The translations under genes and the position numbers were made by a program. A DNA stretch of 38,862 nt, taken from contig CANPXC010000002.1 of assembly GCA_947585605.1 (NCBI GenBank), positions 1 through 38,862 of the forward strand. Direction: 5' to 3'. Each line of letters begins with the position of its first letter. Within the stretch, counting starts at the first letter, position 1. The DNA is from Candidatus Gastranaerophilales bacterium. Lineage in GTDB: Bacteria; Cyanobacteriota; Vampirovibrionia; Gastranaerophilales; Gastranaerophilaceae. The notes beneath the pieces are model-generated. The model did no database searches and was not told the DNA's origin. It saw nothing but the letters and a program-made list of their open reading frames with translations. Below, piece after piece: positions 3,339 through 21,700 of this stretch.

Positions 3339-6300
3339 TTAATCCAAAGAGAAAATATCCTGCAGGTCGGCATAAGTGAGAGTTTTACCGATGTTTCTAT
3401 CTACGCTGATAACGGAGTCGACCAAATTTCTCTTATCCTGTTTAAGTTTTTGAATTTTTTCTTCAACAGTATTTTTTGTAATTAAGCGGTAAACAAATAC
3501 TTTTTTAGTTTGCCCTATACGATAAGCACGGTCGGTTGCCTGATCTTCAACAGCAGGGTTCCACCAAGGGTCATAATGGATGACATAATCCGCACCCGTC
3601 AAATTCAATCCCGTACCGCCGGCTTTTAAGCTGACTAAGAAAATAGGTATTGTTTCATCCGTATTAAAGCGTTCGACAACCTCTTGACGATTTTTGGTTG
3701 AGCCTGTTAAGTATTCGTGTTTTATGCCTTCTTTTGTCAGCCATTCTTTTACTATATCAAGCATATCAACAAATTGCGAGAATAATAATATTCTGTGACC
3801 TTCGGAGATAATTTCCTCCAGCATTGATTTTAACTGCTCAAACTTACCTGAGGTTTCTATGCCTTTTTTATTTTCTTTATCATACAGCCTTGGGTGGCAG
3901 CAGATTTGACGCAGTCTTAACAATGCTGAGAATATGCTCATGCGGCTCTTTTCAAGTCCGTTTTCGGCAATGGATTTGAACAATTCTTCTTTTGTTGAAT
4001 CCAATACTTCAAGATAAAAGTCTTTTTGTTCGGGCGTAAGTTCACAGTATGCAATGTTTTCAACTTTATCCGGTAAGTCTTTCGCAACATCTCTTTTCAT
4101 ACGTCTTAAAATGAACGGATAAATTTGTGATTTTAAACGTTTTTCTACTATTTTTTCACCCCTGTCTACAATCGGAGTAACATACCTGTAATTAAATTCC
4201 GATAAACTAAGCAAAAATCCGGGCATTAAGAAATCAAACACGCTCCAAAGCTCTTCAAGTTTATTCTCGATAGGAGTACCTGAAAGTGCCAGTTTATGCT
4301 GGCCGTTCAGCAATTTTATTGATTTTGCCGTTATGGATTCGGGGTTTTTTATATTTTGTGATTCATCCAATATAATATAGCGGAATTCATATTTTTTAAG
4401 TTTTTCAATATCACGTCTTATAAGTGCATAGCTGGTAATAATGATATCGTATTTCGGTATATCTTTAAAATGTTCTTTTCTTTCCATACCGCTTAATTTA
4501 AGACACTTCAAGGAAGGAATAAATTTTTGGACTTCATTTTCCCAGTTAAACACAACGGAAGTAGGACAAACGACCAAATTTGGAGCTTTTTTATCCTTCT
4601 CTTTCGCTTTTTGCAAGAGAGTCAATGCCTGCAATGTTTTACCAAGCCCCATATCATCCGCCAAAATACCGTTAAGTCCGTATTTATATAAGAACCAAAG
4701 CCAGCTGAACCCTTTATATTGATATTCTCTTAATTCCGCATTAATTCCTTTCGGCAGAGGCGCATTATCCATAGTTGAAAATGTTGAAATCTGCTTCCAA
4801 AATGCCGAAAATCTGCGGCTCATTTTAAGTTTAAATCCTAAGTTCTGCATTTCGGAAAGCAAACCGGCTCTAAATGTTTTTACAATATATTTATTGTCTT
4901 CATTTTTATAAACATCAAACGTATTAAACGATTTTAAAATAGCGAATATATCTTGCCCCGGTACTTCAACAAATCCGTAATTTTTGACCCTTAAATACTT
5001 GTCGCCTTCAACTATCAAATTATAAATTTCATCAAAAGAAATTTCTTCATCGCCTACTCTGCCGTATAAATTGACTTCAAAACTATCCGTAGAATCAATA
5101 GCAAAATCAATATCCGCAACCATTTCAAACGGTTTGGGTGATAATTTGAAAAAGCTCATATCATCTTTTTCTTCAAACTTCCAGCCTTCTCCTGCCCGTT
5201 TTAGGTAGTAATTGTAGAAATCTATGGCATTTTCTTTCTCAATAGCAAGATTATTTGTCTGCATTGGAGCAAATTTGCATGCCAAAAGCATTTGATATGC
5301 GCGTTCTTCGTGCGCAATATTCCGTTTAACCCAATATAATAAATCTTCTTTCGGTTTTTTAATTGTTACATAAGGACTTTTTGAAGCGGATTTTGAATAT
5401 GCAACTCTTGTTCCGTCATAATCAAATTCCAGCTCCGCTTTTAAGGCACCGTCATAATCAAGTCCCATTGTTACAACGTTAAGCGGAGGTCTTTGTTCCA
5501 AAGTCAATTTATCTATAATTTCAGACACTTCGCACGGGATTAATTCTCTTAATTTAGGCAGTTCTTCATATAAAAATTTAGCACCGTCCGCGTCTTTAAC
5601 ATCCGTAAATGTAGATTTTATAAGCGTTTGAGGCAGTGAAGAAAGTGCAATATTTATCGGGAATATTTTATTTTTATATCTTCCCCATTTTAATTGTCTT
5701 GAGAAATATCTTACTTCTTCAAACGGAATTATATCGTCCTTATCAGGTCTTTGCCAGTATAAAGATAACAAAACATTTCCCACCATTGAAAAATTAACTG
5801 CCATGGAAAGTTTCCATTCTTCGCCGCAGAAAACGAGTTTATCTTTTGTCTTTCCGTCAATAACGTCATCTGCCTTGGCGAGCAGCTGAAAAAACCCGTC
5901 AAATTTGGCTATCGGAATATCATACCAGCCTGCTTTTTTGTCCAGCCTTGAATTTTTCATTAATTGTTGAAAAATTGCCAATTCAATTTTTTGAGAATTA
6001 TTTAGTTCAAAATTTTCATCACTGCGCTGAGCTGCAATTACCGCCTTTAACAGCGCTTCTATATCGCGGATTACTTTTCCTGTATTTCTGTCCATAACCA
6101 GTATAGAAAAGAAATTTTGACGTCTTTTGGCATTAAAATGAAAAACATACCCGCCCTGCGGATTTTCATTCATTTGCGTTTCACTGTCCGAATAATCCGG
6201 TTTAATTTTATATCTGCGTTCCAAAAATTCATCATACACGTGTTCATTTATTGCCTTAAATGCAACAGCTATTGCGTGTTTGCACCATTTTTCTTTTAAA

Positions 6301-6515
6301 GGACACGAACAAGAAGGCTCAACTCCATTCTTTTTAAATTTGAGTTCAACATCATAAAAAGATTTAAAATTTCCTTTTACTTTTGCTTTAACACCTGTTT
6401 TTCCCGCTTCAAAAGTTTCCACCTGTTCTTTTTGGTGGTACTCATAACCGCGCCTCCAGCTCCCCGGAGTAGAGTTATCTTTTAAATACTTAAAATTAAA
6501 GTTACAACCTGTCAT
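3339..6515 (-). CDS. SWIM zinc-finger SNF2-family ATPase/helicase
   Basis: A 1058-residue DNA-dependent ATPase of the bacterial HepA/SNF2 type. Order of parts: N-terminal SWIM zinc finger (C69-x-C71...C78-x-H80, CSCPLKEKWCKH); a long middle region matching the bacterial SNF2-associated domain by position; then the helicase core, with Walker A ADDMGLGKT (about 620), box II DESQ (about 715, DEAH variant), motif III LALSGTPIENKLEELWS, and motifs V-VI in VSLKAGGTGLNL...DQATDRAYRIGQ (about 970-1000). It is full length and intact. The start ATG has AAAGAG nearby. A promoter and a long AU-rich hairpin precede it (separate entries). The family remodels or translocates on duplex DNA; a specific bacterial role is not established from the sequence. 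Confidence 0.92.
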   Translation of the reverse strand: MTGCNFNFKYLKDNSTPGSWRRGYEYHQKEQVETFEAGKTGVKAKVKGNFKSFYDVELKFKKNGVEPSCSCPLKEKWCKHAIAVAFKAINEHVYDEFLERRYKIKPDYSDSETQMNENPQGGYVFHFNAKRRQNFFSILVMDRNTGKVIRDIEALLKAVIAAQRSDENFELNNSQKIELAIFQQLMKNSRLDKKAGWYDIPIAKFDGFFQLLAKADDVIDGKTKDKLVFCGEEWKLSMAVNFSMVGNVLLSLYWQRPDKDDIIPFEEVRYFSRQLKWGRYKNKIFPINIALSSLPQTLIKSTFTDVKDADGAKFLYEELPKLRELIPCEVSEIIDKLTLEQRPPLNVVTMGLDYDGALKAELEFDYDGTRVAYSKSASKSPYVTIKKPKEDLLYWVKRNIAHEERAYQMLLACKFAPMQTNNLAIEKENAIDFYNYYLKRAGEGWKFEEKDDMSFFKLSPKPFEMVADIDFAIDSTDSFEVNLYGRVGDEEISFDEIYNLIVEGDKYLRVKNYGFVEVPGQDIFAILKSFNTFDVYKNEDNKYIVKTFRAGLLSEMQNLGFKLKMSRRFSAFWKQISTFSTMDNAPLPKGINAELREYQYKGFSWLWFLYKYGLNGILADDMGLGKTLQALTLLQKAKEKDKKAPNLVVCPTSVVFNWENEVQKFIPSLKCLKLSGMERKEHFKDIPKYDIIITSYALIRRDIEKLKKYEFRYIILDESQNIKNPESITAKSIKLLNGQHKLALSGTPIENKLEELWSVFDFLMPGFLLSLSEFNYRYVTPIVDRGEKIVEKRLKSQIYPFILRRMKRDVAKDLPDKVENIAYCELTPEQKDFYLEVLDSTKEELFKSIAENGLEKSRMSIFSALLRLRQICCHPRLYDKENKKGIETSGKFEQLKSMLEEIISEGHRILLFSQFVDMLDIVKEWLTKEGIKHEYLTGSTKNRQEVVERFNTDETIPIFLVSLKAGGTGLNLTGADYVIHYDPWWNPAVEDQATDRAYRIGQTKKVFVYRLITKNTVEEKIQKLKQDKRNLVDSVISVDRNIGKTLTYADLQDIFSLD

Positions 6516-6668: not shown

Positions 6669-7604
6669 CTATTTCTTAAATATTTCTTTGTATAATTTTA
6701 TTCTGTTTTCCATAGTTTCATTTAAAAACATATAAGCTTTGTGATATCTGTTATCATATTGAGAAATACCAAATCTTGCAGGATTATACAAATGTCTTGC
6801 CCCCTGTTCATCAGAAACAAATTTATCTTTTGTCAAATCGTTTCTTACAAAGAAAGCATTAACTCCGCTTGTTGATGTGCCGACTAAATTATAACCGTAT
6901 TTTTTTAATAAATGATAAAATGCCGATAAACTTGCCCCCTGACAATTATCGCCCTTCCAGCACCAATCCTCTTTATATTCCATTACCCAATCCGTTGAAG
7001 TATCGTTTGCATCATGTGAAGGAGGAATAAGTGAGTTATATTCCGTACATATAACTCTCGGATTAACATATTTTTCATCCAATATAGATTTTAAAACATG
7101 CCAATCATTCCCGTCTATATCAACACTTAAAAAGTCAATTTCTCCGCCAAAATTGTGTTTTTTGAAGATTTGATTAATATTTTCTTTTGTTATAAAAGCT
7201 TGTTCTAATTTTAAATATCCATTTTTTATAGGAGTGGCAAAAATTTTATTTATCTCGTTAATATGCTTTTGACCGGCTTCAATCCATAAACCGTTCCAAA
7301 GTGTTGTTAATAATAAATGTGAATTACATTGTAATCCGTTTTGTACTCCGAATTCTATAAATTTTTTATTAGTCAGACCAATTCTGTGAAAAATTTCATT
7401 TATAATTCCATCTTCATCATTTTGAGAGAACACCCTATATCCAAAACCTTCAAGATATAATTTATTTTTATACCTTTCTTCCAAATCTAAATCCCAAAAT
7501 TCCCCCCCCCTATTGATATTGGGCATTGTATTATTTTTTATGTCAGTTAGCAGTCTTTCTGTTGATTTGCCGGTAATTCTATTAAAAAATTTTTTTAAAC
7601 TCAT
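6669..7604 (-). CDS. FkbM-like SAM-dependent methyltransferase with a poly-G tract
   Basis: The ORF-track ATG at 7616 overlaps the Shine-Dalgarno: GGAGG then ATAAA then ATG puts the real start at 7604, giving 311 residues. FIEFGVQNG (about 82-90) matches the glycine-rich SAM motif of FkbM-type methyltransferases, and DFLSVDIDGNDWHVL (about 157-171) matches the downstream acidic motif; SQNDEDGI is also typical of this group. Such enzymes often O-methylate sugars of surface glycans. No signal peptide or membrane helix is seen, so it should act in the cytoplasm. Codons 31-34 (NRGGE) contain a run of nine G; loss or gain of one G would truncate the protein near its start, as in phase-variable genes. 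The tract is in frame here, so this copy reads ON. Confidence 0.78.
   Translation of the reverse strand: MSLKKFFNRITGKSTERLLTDIKNNTMPNINRGGEFWDLDLEERYKNKLYLEGFGYRVFSQNDEDGIINEIFHRIGLTNKKFIEFGVQNGLQCNSHLLLTTLWNGLWIEAGQKHINEINKIFATPIKNGYLKLEQAFITKENINQIFKKHNFGGEIDFLSVDIDGNDWHVLKSILDEKYVNPRVICTEYNSLIPPSHDANDTSTDWVMEYKEDWCWKGDNCQGASLSAFYHLLKKYGYNLVGTSTSGVNAFFVRNDLTKDKFVSDEQGARHLYNPARFGISQYDNRYHKAYMFLNETMENRIKLYKEIFKK
7502..7510 (-). repeat. G9 homopolymer tract inside the methyltransferase gene
   Basis: Nine consecutive C on the plus strand (G on the coding strand) fall in AGG GGG GGG GAA. Such a run is out of character for AT-rich DNA, and its position within the first tenth of the gene suits slipped-strand ON/OFF switching. 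Confidence 0.9.
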
Positions 7605-7803
7605 TTTATCCTCCATAATTTATAGTTAATTATATCACAAAAACTAATACGCTGTTAAAATCTACGTTCTATCCGCCCGTTGTTACGCTTTTTTTCGGCG
7701 GTTAATCCTCAATTGCTTTTATATTTCGTTTAATTTAGTTTGTTGATTTACTGAATTTTTTAATTGTAATCATTAGAATTTAGATTTAAAATAATATAAA
7801 ACA

Positions 7804-17058: not shown

Positions 17059-18852
17059 TTATTTTACATTTCTGTCAAAGAAAGAAGCGACTTCTTTAAG
17101 CGGGATATAATGCGAAATGGGTCTGCCGTGCGGGCATGTATAGGGATTTTTTGACGCCCTCAATTTTTTAACTATTTCCTCCATTTGCCACAGCGTGAGT
17201 TTCTCTCCTGCTTTTACGGAAGCTTTACAAGATATTGTTATTAATATCTTTTCTTCTATTGTATCCGGATTATTTTCCGGAGAGTCTTTTAAATTTTTAA
17301 TTAATTCCGACAAAATATCTTTCGGTTTTACTTTAGATAATATTTGAGGAATTTTTTTAAATATTATTTGTGTATCAGAAATTTTTTCTATTTTATAACC
17401 GAATTTTTCAAGATGATTAGAAGCATTATCTAAAATTTCAATTTCTTCGGGTGAAACATCAAGCACATCAGAAATAATTAATAACTGAGAAGCGATTTTT
17501 TTTTCTTTTTTAAGCTTTTCATAAATATATCGTTCCTGGGCAATGTGTTGATCAATAATTTCCAAATTATCATCATTTTCGACCAGAATGTATGTATTAT
17601 TGTACTGCCCAATAACATTAATTTGTTTAAGTTTTGAAGGGATTTCAAAGTTTATATCAATTTTCTTTTGTTCAGTTTCTTCCGAGAAATCATTTTCAAC
17701 ATCTTCTATTTTTCTTTCGGCGGGGAACTCTATAAAAACGTCATCATTTTCTTCCTGATTATCACCGGTGCCAAATTGAGGCAATGTTTTCGGGAAAGAA
17801 ATTATTTTATTTGACTGTTTATTTTCATTAATATCAGATTGTTTTTGAGGTTCAGGGTTTGTATTTGAATTTAAAAGTGCGAAATCTATAGCGCTTTGAA
17901 CAAAGCTGAATACTTGATTTGGTGATTTGTAGCGAATTTCACGTTTAGTAGGATGAACATTAACATCAATATCATTAGGACTAATTTGTAAATTAATAAC
18001 AACAAAAGGGTATCTGCCCGAGGGGAGCATATTTTTATAGGCGACATCAATAGCTTTAATTAAAATAGGGCATTTAACCATGCGGGAATTAACGAAAGTA
18101 AATATTGATTTTTTGCTTGAGCGTGTATAAGAAGGGATAGAGGCGTATCCTGTCAGTTTCATTGCGCTGAAAGCGTCAACTTTTTCAATTTTTTTAAGTT
18201 CATTTATCAGGGAAGAAGAGTATAAATGTGTAATTCTCATCATTAAATCAGAATTAACCGTTGTTGAAATGACAGCTGCACCGTCATTTTTAAGGATAAA
18301 AGCTATTTCGGTGTGAGAAAGAGCTAAAGCTTGAATAAGTTCCTGAATATATGCGAATTCCGTTTTAGGATTTTTGAGGAATTTCAAGCGTGCGGGCTGA
18401 TTAAAAAACAGGTCATTAACTTCCATAATTGTACCGTCAGCGCAGCCGATTTTTTGTGATTTTACAACAGAGTTTTCACATGTAACTTTTGTACCGAAGT
18501 CACAATCTTTTGTTTTAGTAGTACAGCAAACGCGGGCAACTGATATAATACTGGCAAGTGCTTCACCTCTAAAACCGAGTGTTTGGATATTAAACAAATC
18601 TTGTTCCGAGTTTAATTTGCTGGTCGCATGTTTGGTAAAAGCCAATTGAATATCATCGGGGTATATTCCGCAGCCGTTATCAGCCACTCTAATATTTCTG
18701 CATTCATTTGAGATAGAGATTTCGATTTTGGTTGCACCCGCGTCAATAGAGTTTTCCACCAATTCTTTAACCACACCTGCGGGTCTGTCTATAACTTCAC
18801 CTGCCGCAATTTGATTTATTAAATTAACGCTTAATTGTTTTATTCTTCCCAT
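17059..18852 (-). CDS. mutL: DNA mismatch repair protein MutL, endonuclease type
   Basis: A 597-residue mismatch-repair protein. The N-terminal GHKL ATPase is complete: LVENSIDAGA (about 32-41), VADNGCGI, TLGFRGEALASI and a KSIFTFVNSRMV / DVNVHPTKREIRY segment. A variable acidic linker (about 330-400) leads to the C-terminal dimerisation domain, which has DQHIAQERYIYE (the DQHA-x2-E-x4-E endonuclease motif with Ile for Ala) and the terminal CPHGRP zinc/metal motif. So this is the nicking type of MutL found in bacteria without MutH. The start is MGRIKQLSVNLINQIAAGEV, the normal family N-terminus. Followed by mlaE in the same direction. Mismatch repair status matters here because two poly-G tracts lie nearby. 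Confidence 0.96.
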   Translation of the reverse strand: MGRIKQLSVNLINQIAAGEVIDRPAGVVKELVENSIDAGATKIEISISNECRNIRVADNGCGIYPDDIQLAFTKHATSKLNSEQDLFNIQTLGFRGEALASIISVARVCCTTKTKDCDFGTKVTCENSVVKSQKIGCADGTIMEVNDLFFNQPARLKFLKNPKTEFAYIQELIQALALSHTEIAFILKNDGAAVISTTVNSDLMMRITHLYSSSLINELKKIEKVDAFSAMKLTGYASIPSYTRSSKKSIFTFVNSRMVKCPILIKAIDVAYKNMLPSGRYPFVVINLQISPNDIDVNVHPTKREIRYKSPNQVFSFVQSAIDFALLNSNTNPEPQKQSDINENKQSNKIISFPKTLPQFGTGDNQEENDDVFIEFPAERKIEDVENDFSEETEQKKIDINFEIPSKLKQINVIGQYNNTYILVENDDNLEIIDQHIAQERYIYEKLKKEKKIASQLLIISDVLDVSPEEIEILDNASNHLEKFGYKIEKISDTQIIFKKIPQILSKVKPKDILSELIKNLKDSPENNPDTIEEKILITISCKASVKAGEKLTLWQMEEIVKKLRASKNPYTCPHGRPISHYIPLKEVASFFDRNVK

Positions 18853-19003: not shown

Positions 19004-19075
19004 GCGGGCGTAATTCAGTGGTAGAATGCAACCTTCCCAAGGTTGACGCCGAGGGTTCGAGTCCCTTCGCCCGCT
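19004..19075 (+). tRNA. tRNA-Gly (anticodon CCC)
   Basis: Acceptor GCGGGCG pairs with CGCCCGC, with discriminator T. The D arm contains AGTGGTAGAAT, the anticodon stem CAACC/GGTTG holds loop TTCCCAA with anticodon CCC, and the T arm is GAGGG-TTCGAGT-CCCTT. CCA is not encoded. It reads GGG codons. The antisense ORF over it (SNPRRQPWEGC) is the usual tRNA artefact. Confidence 0.96.
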
Positions 19076-20740: not shown

Positions 20741-20791
20741 TATGGATTTATTATATAATCAGTTATAACTAAAAACATGAGAAGGAATATT

Positions 20792-21700
20792 ATGGAACGT
20801 GCAGCTGTTTTTGCTCATTACAGTAAAAATAATAAGATAGAAGAATATGTAATTTATTATTTAAAAGAATTAAATAAATTCGTTAAAAACATTATTTTTG
20901 TTTCCGATTGTTCACTTGATGAAAAACAGCAAAATAAAATCAAAGATTATACTTATAAAATTATTGCACAAAGACATGGCGAATATGATTTTGGTTCTTA
21001 TAAAAGGGGATATCAATACCTCCAAGAAAACAACCTGTTAAATAATATTGATGAATTAATTTTCGCAAATGACTCTTGTTATGCACCTTTATATCCATTC
21101 GATGATATGTTTAACACAATGTCAAACAGAAAATGTGACTTTTGGGGCGCAACGGCAAATTCCAGAGGACTAAAACGTATGGGGGGGGGGATTCCTTATC
21201 TGGATATTGATTTCTACCATATACAAAGTTATTTTTTAGTGTTCAAGCCCTCTGTTTTTAATAATAATCTTTTTAAAGATTTCATAAATTCCGTTAAACA
21301 TGAAGCTAACAAAGTCGAAGTCGTTATAGAATACGAATTAGGACTTAGTAAATTACTGCTTGATAACGGTTTTATTTCAGACGCCTACAGCGAATCAAGT
21401 AAAACATATCTTAAAACTTATGACGACAGATACAAAGAATTAATACTTCAAGAAAAATCTCCCTTTTTAAAAAGAAATTTGGTTTTATGTAATTCTTTTC
21501 CGCCAAAAATTATTTTTCACTTGAAAGAAATAATTAATCAAACAAATTATGACTACAATATAATCTTAAAAGACAGAATAAAATATACAAATATAAAAAA
21601 TATTATAAAAATATATAAAAAAAATAAATTCAGACTAAGTCTAAAAGAAAAAAAACTAATACTTTTTAATCATACTTATTATTTTGGGCGAAAAAAATAA
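20792..21700 (+). CDS. Rhamnan-synthesis F (RgpF)-like protein with a poly-G tract
   Basis: GAAGGA lies five bases ahead of the ATG at 20792, so the start is MERAAVFAHYSKNNK (302 residues) rather than the upstream ATG at 20777. The family signature is clear: FAHYSKNNKIEEYVIYYLKE at the N-terminus, YDFGSYKRGYQYL (about 65-77), and LIFANDSCYAPLYPFDDMF (about 90-107). RgpF-type proteins are found in rhamnose-rich polysaccharide and O-antigen clusters and are thought to be glycosyltransferases; here it stands alone. Codons around 130-133 (RMGGGIP) contain a run of ten G; a one-base slip would truncate the protein before its midpoint. This copy is in frame (ON). It follows the tRNA-Leu terminator. 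Confidence 0.85.
   Translation: MERAAVFAHYSKNNKIEEYVIYYLKELNKFVKNIIFVSDCSLDEKQQNKIKDYTYKIIAQRHGEYDFGSYKRGYQYLQENNLLNNIDELIFANDSCYAPLYPFDDMFNTMSNRKCDFWGATANSRGLKRMGGGIPYLDIDFYHIQSYFLVFKPSVFNNNLFKDFINSVKHEANKVEVVIEYELGLSKLLLDNGFISDAYSESSKTYLKTYDDRYKELILQEKSPFLKRNLVLCNSFPPKIIFHLKEIINQTNYDYNIILKDRIKYTNIKNIIKIYKKNKFRLSLKEKKLILFNHTYYFGRKK
21181..21190 (+). repeat. G10 homopolymer tract inside the RgpF-like gene
   Basis: ATG GGG GGG GGG ATT: ten consecutive G in AT-rich coding sequence. Together with the G9 tract at 7502 it is a second candidate contingency tract in a glycan gene. Confidence 0.92.

Follow-up and report, generated by a model that had tools for sequence, protein, structure and literature searches.

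In Neisseria, poly-G/C tracts in the promoter spacers of porA and opc act as switches. The nadA gene of the same genus carries distal promoter repeats (PMC2791445), and phase variation has been indicated in 115 genes of the Neisseria meningitidis phasome (PMC5084427). Campylobacter jejuni NCTC11168 has 29 poly-G/poly-C tracts of 7 or more (PMC4965091), and in this species length change is established for G8–G12 tracts (PMC4965091). Here we characterize a G10 tract in an RgpF-family glycan gene, contained in a 38.9-kb stretch of DNA (the whole stretch analysed, hereafter the window) from a Gastranaerophilales MAG (1.79 Mb, 172 contigs, 84% complete, 32% GC). Gastranaerophilales are a non-photosynthetic cousin of the cyanobacteria. 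The RgpF tract falls outside the Neisseria promoter-spacer class; with the other tracts of its genome, it looks like one of many switches that turn cell-surface genes on and off at random, a kind of system described chiefly in pathogens, Campylobacter among them.

We consider it very probable that slipped-strand phase variation acts on the G10 run, making it a simple-sequence contingency locus and one of a genome-wide set of such poly-G loci. Briefly, slippage of DNA polymerase would gain or lose one G at the tract, and the resulting +1 or –1 change would shift the frame of the RgpF-like gene, so that cells would alternate, randomly and reversibly, between a 302-aa full-length product (G10) and a shortened one that is presumably inactive. 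Across the bacterial family, tracts within genes would act through translation and those in promoter spacers through transcription, with tracts near ribosome binding sites perhaps acting through translation initiation; the targets would mostly be surface-exposed glycans and proteins, together with pilin-like proteins. Four sets of observations are described below: the tracts themselves, their excess, their placement, and the occurrence of paralogs and orthologs both in frame and out of frame. As a mechanism, slipped-strand mispairing is the most economical one.

The two poly-G tracts of the window

Ten G were confirmed at 21181–21190 on the plus strand, in the frame ATG GGG GGG GGG ATT. They lie in a gene at 20777–21700 (plus strand) whose longest ORF starts at 20777 and encodes 307 aa; the likely start is the ATG at 20792, with AAGGA upstream, which gives 302 aa and places the tract at codons 130–133, as the original prediction had it. 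The prediction had also called the gene RgpF-like, and its product matched Pfam PF05045 (RgpF) at 1e-37 and 130.4 bits (gathering score 25), over profile positions 1–280 of 503. Judged only by its family, the product is a putative transferase for surface polysaccharide synthesis. The gene stands alone, flanked by a tRNA-Leu gene and a MarR gene. The product is 307 aa at G10 (longest ORF), 153 aa at G9 and 144 aa at G11.

A second in-frame poly-G tract had been claimed within 14 kb of the first, and it is present as a G9 tract at 7502–7510 on the minus strand (C9 on the plus strand). It lies in frame within an FkbM-type methyltransferase gene at 6669–7616 (minus strand; PF05050, 7.8e-05, just above the cut-off) whose product is 315 aa at G9, 42 aa at G8 and 49 aa at G10. 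At their assembled lengths both genes are thus ON, in agreement with the earlier reading. Apart from these two tracts the window has no G/C run of 7 or longer, and the two runs of at least 9 compare with 0.026 expected under a first-order Markov model; the pair is not a product of chance. The tract-bearing FkbM gene adjoins a gene for a Snf2-family helicase (3339–6515), for which the best NCBIfam match, below the cut-off, is a 'pilus expression-regulating Snf2 family helicase'. The window also encodes, at 19004–19075 and in an AT-rich genome, a tRNA-Gly(CCC) that could decode GGG codons within the tracts.

A genus search recovered homologs of the RgpF-family protein in 12 other genomes of the genus, and the G tract was absent from all of those found; a contig search using the same protein gave no match. 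The position of the tract, between FWG and HIQSYF, falls in a loop where the lengths of the homologs vary. Because the homologs of the genus lack the tract, it is best read as a species-level gain, which fits phasomes that differ between strains, and ON and OFF lengths are therefore seen at other loci and not at the RgpF locus. The lack of conservation of the RgpF tract across the genus is a point against phase variation. For the FkbM gene, the homolog search returned a single homolog (in G009), also without the tract.

Genome-wide tracts and their reading frames

Across the genome we counted 39 G/C runs that reach 9 or more, compared to ~1.2 expected under a first-order Markov model, which bears out the claim that chance is an unlikely source of such tracts in an AT-rich genome. 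The survey covered mononucleotide G/C tracts in one assembly per species. By length, 17 tracts are G9, 21 are G10 and one is G11. The entire genome has just 2 runs of exactly 7, indicating that tract lengths are bimodal and not the tail of one distribution; in the stretches around the tracts, which were picked for their long tracts, runs of G6, G7 and G8 together number 2 and runs of G5 number 30. The original prediction had foreseen four surface states from independent switching of the two window tracts, a figure that is far too small because the genome has ~39 tracts.

We classed the stretches around all 39 tracts by hand from their reading frames. Among the clear intragenic cases, the two sides of the tract share one frame (ON) in 18 of 21 and differ in frame (OFF) in the other 3. 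The remaining tracts lie just before a TATAAT box (5), near the 3' end of a gene (5), or in intergenic, 5'UTR or ribosome-site positions (6), and 2 are ambiguous. Most tracts are in glycan genes or promoters. Judged by Pfam and NCBIfam, the tract genes are concentrated among surface-structure genes, with RgpF, FkbM (three), WbsX, GT2, GT9, TupA ATP-grasp (three), WbqC, acyltransferase, hexapeptide transferase, AlgX/DHHW, FkbH-like and KdsC-like members; as far as such family matches predict function, they form a surface-glycan repertoire.

The three OFF genes, an FkbH-like gene (L011), a TupA gene (L036) and a KdsC-like gene (L039), each change frame precisely where the tract lies. For L011, the motif LVIWDLDETFWSGTLSE of FkbH enters the tract in one frame and the remaining FkbH sequence continues in another, with the NCBIfam FkbH match running from profile position 38 on. 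An ortholog from G053 (L155) carries a G10 run at the corresponding position and is likewise out of frame, and three homologs with no tract there (L156, L157 and L158) read through in a single frame. The out-of-frame TupA gene has a paralog of identical layout (L032) that is in frame. In the KdsC-type phosphatase gene, the TIGR01670 match covers residues 5–138 and extends to profile position 139 of 154, up to the tract, and the Gly-rich tail is in a different frame from the KdsC part. Ordinary gene decay would not be expected to break each of these genes at its tract.

These frames also bear on the possibility that the tracts are stable coding sequence, that is, poly-Gly or poly-Pro loops retained for the sake of the protein and not for switching. 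A stable Gly or Pro stretch would likewise produce the 18 of 21 in-frame tracts, and the position of the RgpF tract in a loop of variable length also speaks for one. However, GGG makes up 11% of the Gly codons in the window, tracts excluded, such that GGG-GGG-GGG for three consecutive Gly is unusual there, and selection on the protein would not pick GGG three times. Tracts are also found in promoters and out of frame, and runs of 6–8 are almost absent. We therefore regard stable coding as very unlikely, and favor slipped-strand phase variation.

Promoter spacers, prepilin genes and distribution across the order

At loci other than RgpF, tracts form part of a promoter element, TTGCnnY-G(9/10)-TAAAARTGG-TATAAT, that occurs in 15 of the 41 genomes of the genus with up to ~10 copies per genome. 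The core layout is TTGC-G(n)-TAAAAGTGG-TATAAT, and the search pattern was GGGGGGGGGTAAAA(G/A)TGGTATAAT plus close variants; a reversed control of this pattern gave zero matches in the 41 genus genomes. TTGC lies seven bases before the first G in ~27 of 31 promoters, and TATAAT lies 9 nt after the tract. Because the position of TTGC is fixed upstream, the tract forms part of the spacer that separates a –35-like box from an extended –10 box. If TTGCNN is taken as the –35-like hexamer, G9 gives a spacing of 19 and G10 one of 20 (usual 17); these may be weak promoter states, and tracts of 7–8 would then be predicted to give more activity. One promoter pair from two species (L061 and L080), with 89% identity upstream and 83% downstream, has G9 in one member and G10 in the other. 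The genes that follow often share a leader and the N-terminus M-S-D-D-K-E, and then differ in their bodies (Kelch, TPR or unknown), Kelch-type proteins being frequent among them. This promoter-leader module is found at L055–L084, with six copies within 20 kb at G049:C6:101657-121407, and the copies resemble a family of cassettes. We rejected an origin of the element in phage, as viral contigs gave no match.

A different placement is seen in G042, a genome of the same genus with 119 tracts, of which we sampled 47. There, 21 of the 47 tracts fall in members of a large gene family encoding prepilin-like proteins (FTLAEVLITLVVIGIIAA), ~8 codons past an ATG that has a strong ribosome site. Relative to the frame of the ATG, 3 of these tracts are in frame, 10 show a shift of one and 8 a shift of two, and the G9 form often leads directly to TAG or TAA. 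As these are paralogs of one family within one genome and yet differ in frame, they provide the clearest sign of random frame states.

The prepilins also speak to a second alternative, in which transcriptional slippage or programmed frameshifting yields a mixture of frames in each cell and leaves the DNA unchanged. Runs of G9–G11 can be slippery for polymerases, and the OFF genes remain open downstream, as slippage would allow. A programmed site requires a constant offset, though, and none was found: the G042 paralogs show offsets of 0, 1 and 2, a pattern that also disfavors transcriptional slippage with a fixed offset, and the promoter tracts would be left unexplained. We consider this alternative highly improbable, and return to changes in the DNA itself.

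MutS1 is present in 39 of the 41 genus genomes, including nearly all of the tract-rich ones, and MutL is encoded in the window (17059–18852, minus strand). Because these mismatch repair genes are present, we rejected loss of repair as the cause of tract expansion. MutS and MutL would be expected to dampen slippage, which is a point against phase variation. The assembled tract lengths are narrow, mostly 9–10; a consensus assembly can hide or produce such narrowness.

Scanning ~85,000 species for the promoter element gave matches only in Candidatus Gastranaerophilales MAGs, all with 'Lapin' (French for rabbit) in their sample names, plus one 'Bacilli' contig. That 'uncultured Bacilli' contig (L112; CANQOR010000094.1) carries two copies of the Gastranaerophilales promoter element; its MAG has 5 tracts in total, 2 of them on this contig, which is probably mis-binned. 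Tract-rich genomes are common in family f1, reaching 176 runs of G≥9 in G083, 151 in G198 and 132 in G194. In genera g31 and g32, the majority of genomes have almost no tracts, and other families have 0–6. Within a single family, the genera range from ~0 to >100 tracts per genome, with g31 and g32 contrasting with g15 and g16. Very long G runs occur in G013 (C108:1-32) and G019 (C55 and C60), some at contig ends, and are probably sequencing artefacts distinct from the 9–11 tracts. That the tracts as a whole arise from poly-G sequencing or assembly artefacts, for example through two-colour chemistry, is scarcely credible, since despite these long runs in some related MAGs and the origin of all promoter matches in one rabbit-gut data set, the tracts are internal, 9–11 long and consistently positioned, both within a conserved promoter and in orthologs of different species, and recur in many genera of family f1 and not in others.

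The contingency-locus reading of the original prediction is thus well supported by the genome-wide excess in surface-glycan genes, the OFF copies in this genome and in relatives, and the promoter version of the tract. We infer further that slippage, and hence length variation, is live in populations, that the cell surface changes as a result, and that phages or the immunity of the host exert selection.

Comparison with known phase-variable systems

In the open-access literature, whose silence is weak evidence of absence, we found no paper joining Gastranaerophilales and phase variation, and the sole Melainabacteria match was a flagellin survey. Although phase variation of this type is an established mechanism, that literature appears to contain no report of it in this lineage or on this scale, nor of the repeated promoter element. 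In its broadest form, a proposal to which we give even odds, this host-associated Gastranaerophilales family would have one of the largest mononucleotide phasomes of any bacterium, with tens to ~176 poly-G switches, intact mismatch repair genes, a G-tract promoter cassette and prepilins that are mostly OFF, each cell differing in its glycans, pilins and Kelch surface proteins. Tract-rich genera of gut commensals and their near-tractless sister genera offer a natural contrast for asking why phasomes arise. In consensus MAGs of these tract-rich bacteria, spurious 'pseudogenes' are to be expected, as is the merging of surface types, and the candidate poly-G switches would offer a possible route to evading phages or host immunity.

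Like the promoters of Neisseria porA, opc and nadA, the promoter class described here has its tract between or near core promoter elements, where its length would set promoter strength. It differs in being one conserved element, present in up to ~10 copies per genome before varied membrane and surface proteins, and known at the level of sequence. The likeness to the Neisseria meningitidis phasome lies in the many loci per genome and their presumed independent switching; here, however, the loci surveyed are mononucleotide G/C tracts and the organism is an uncultured gut commensal. The closest parallel is with the loci of Campylobacter jejuni, which likewise has a small AT-rich genome with G tracts of ~8–11, mostly in surface-glycan genes, and ON/OFF switching by frameshift. 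Unlike C. jejuni, the genomes studied here are gut commensal MAGs from another phylum in which mismatch repair genes are present, some relatives have more tracts (up to 176 runs of G≥9), and the tracts include two further classes, one in repeated promoters and one in prepilin genes.
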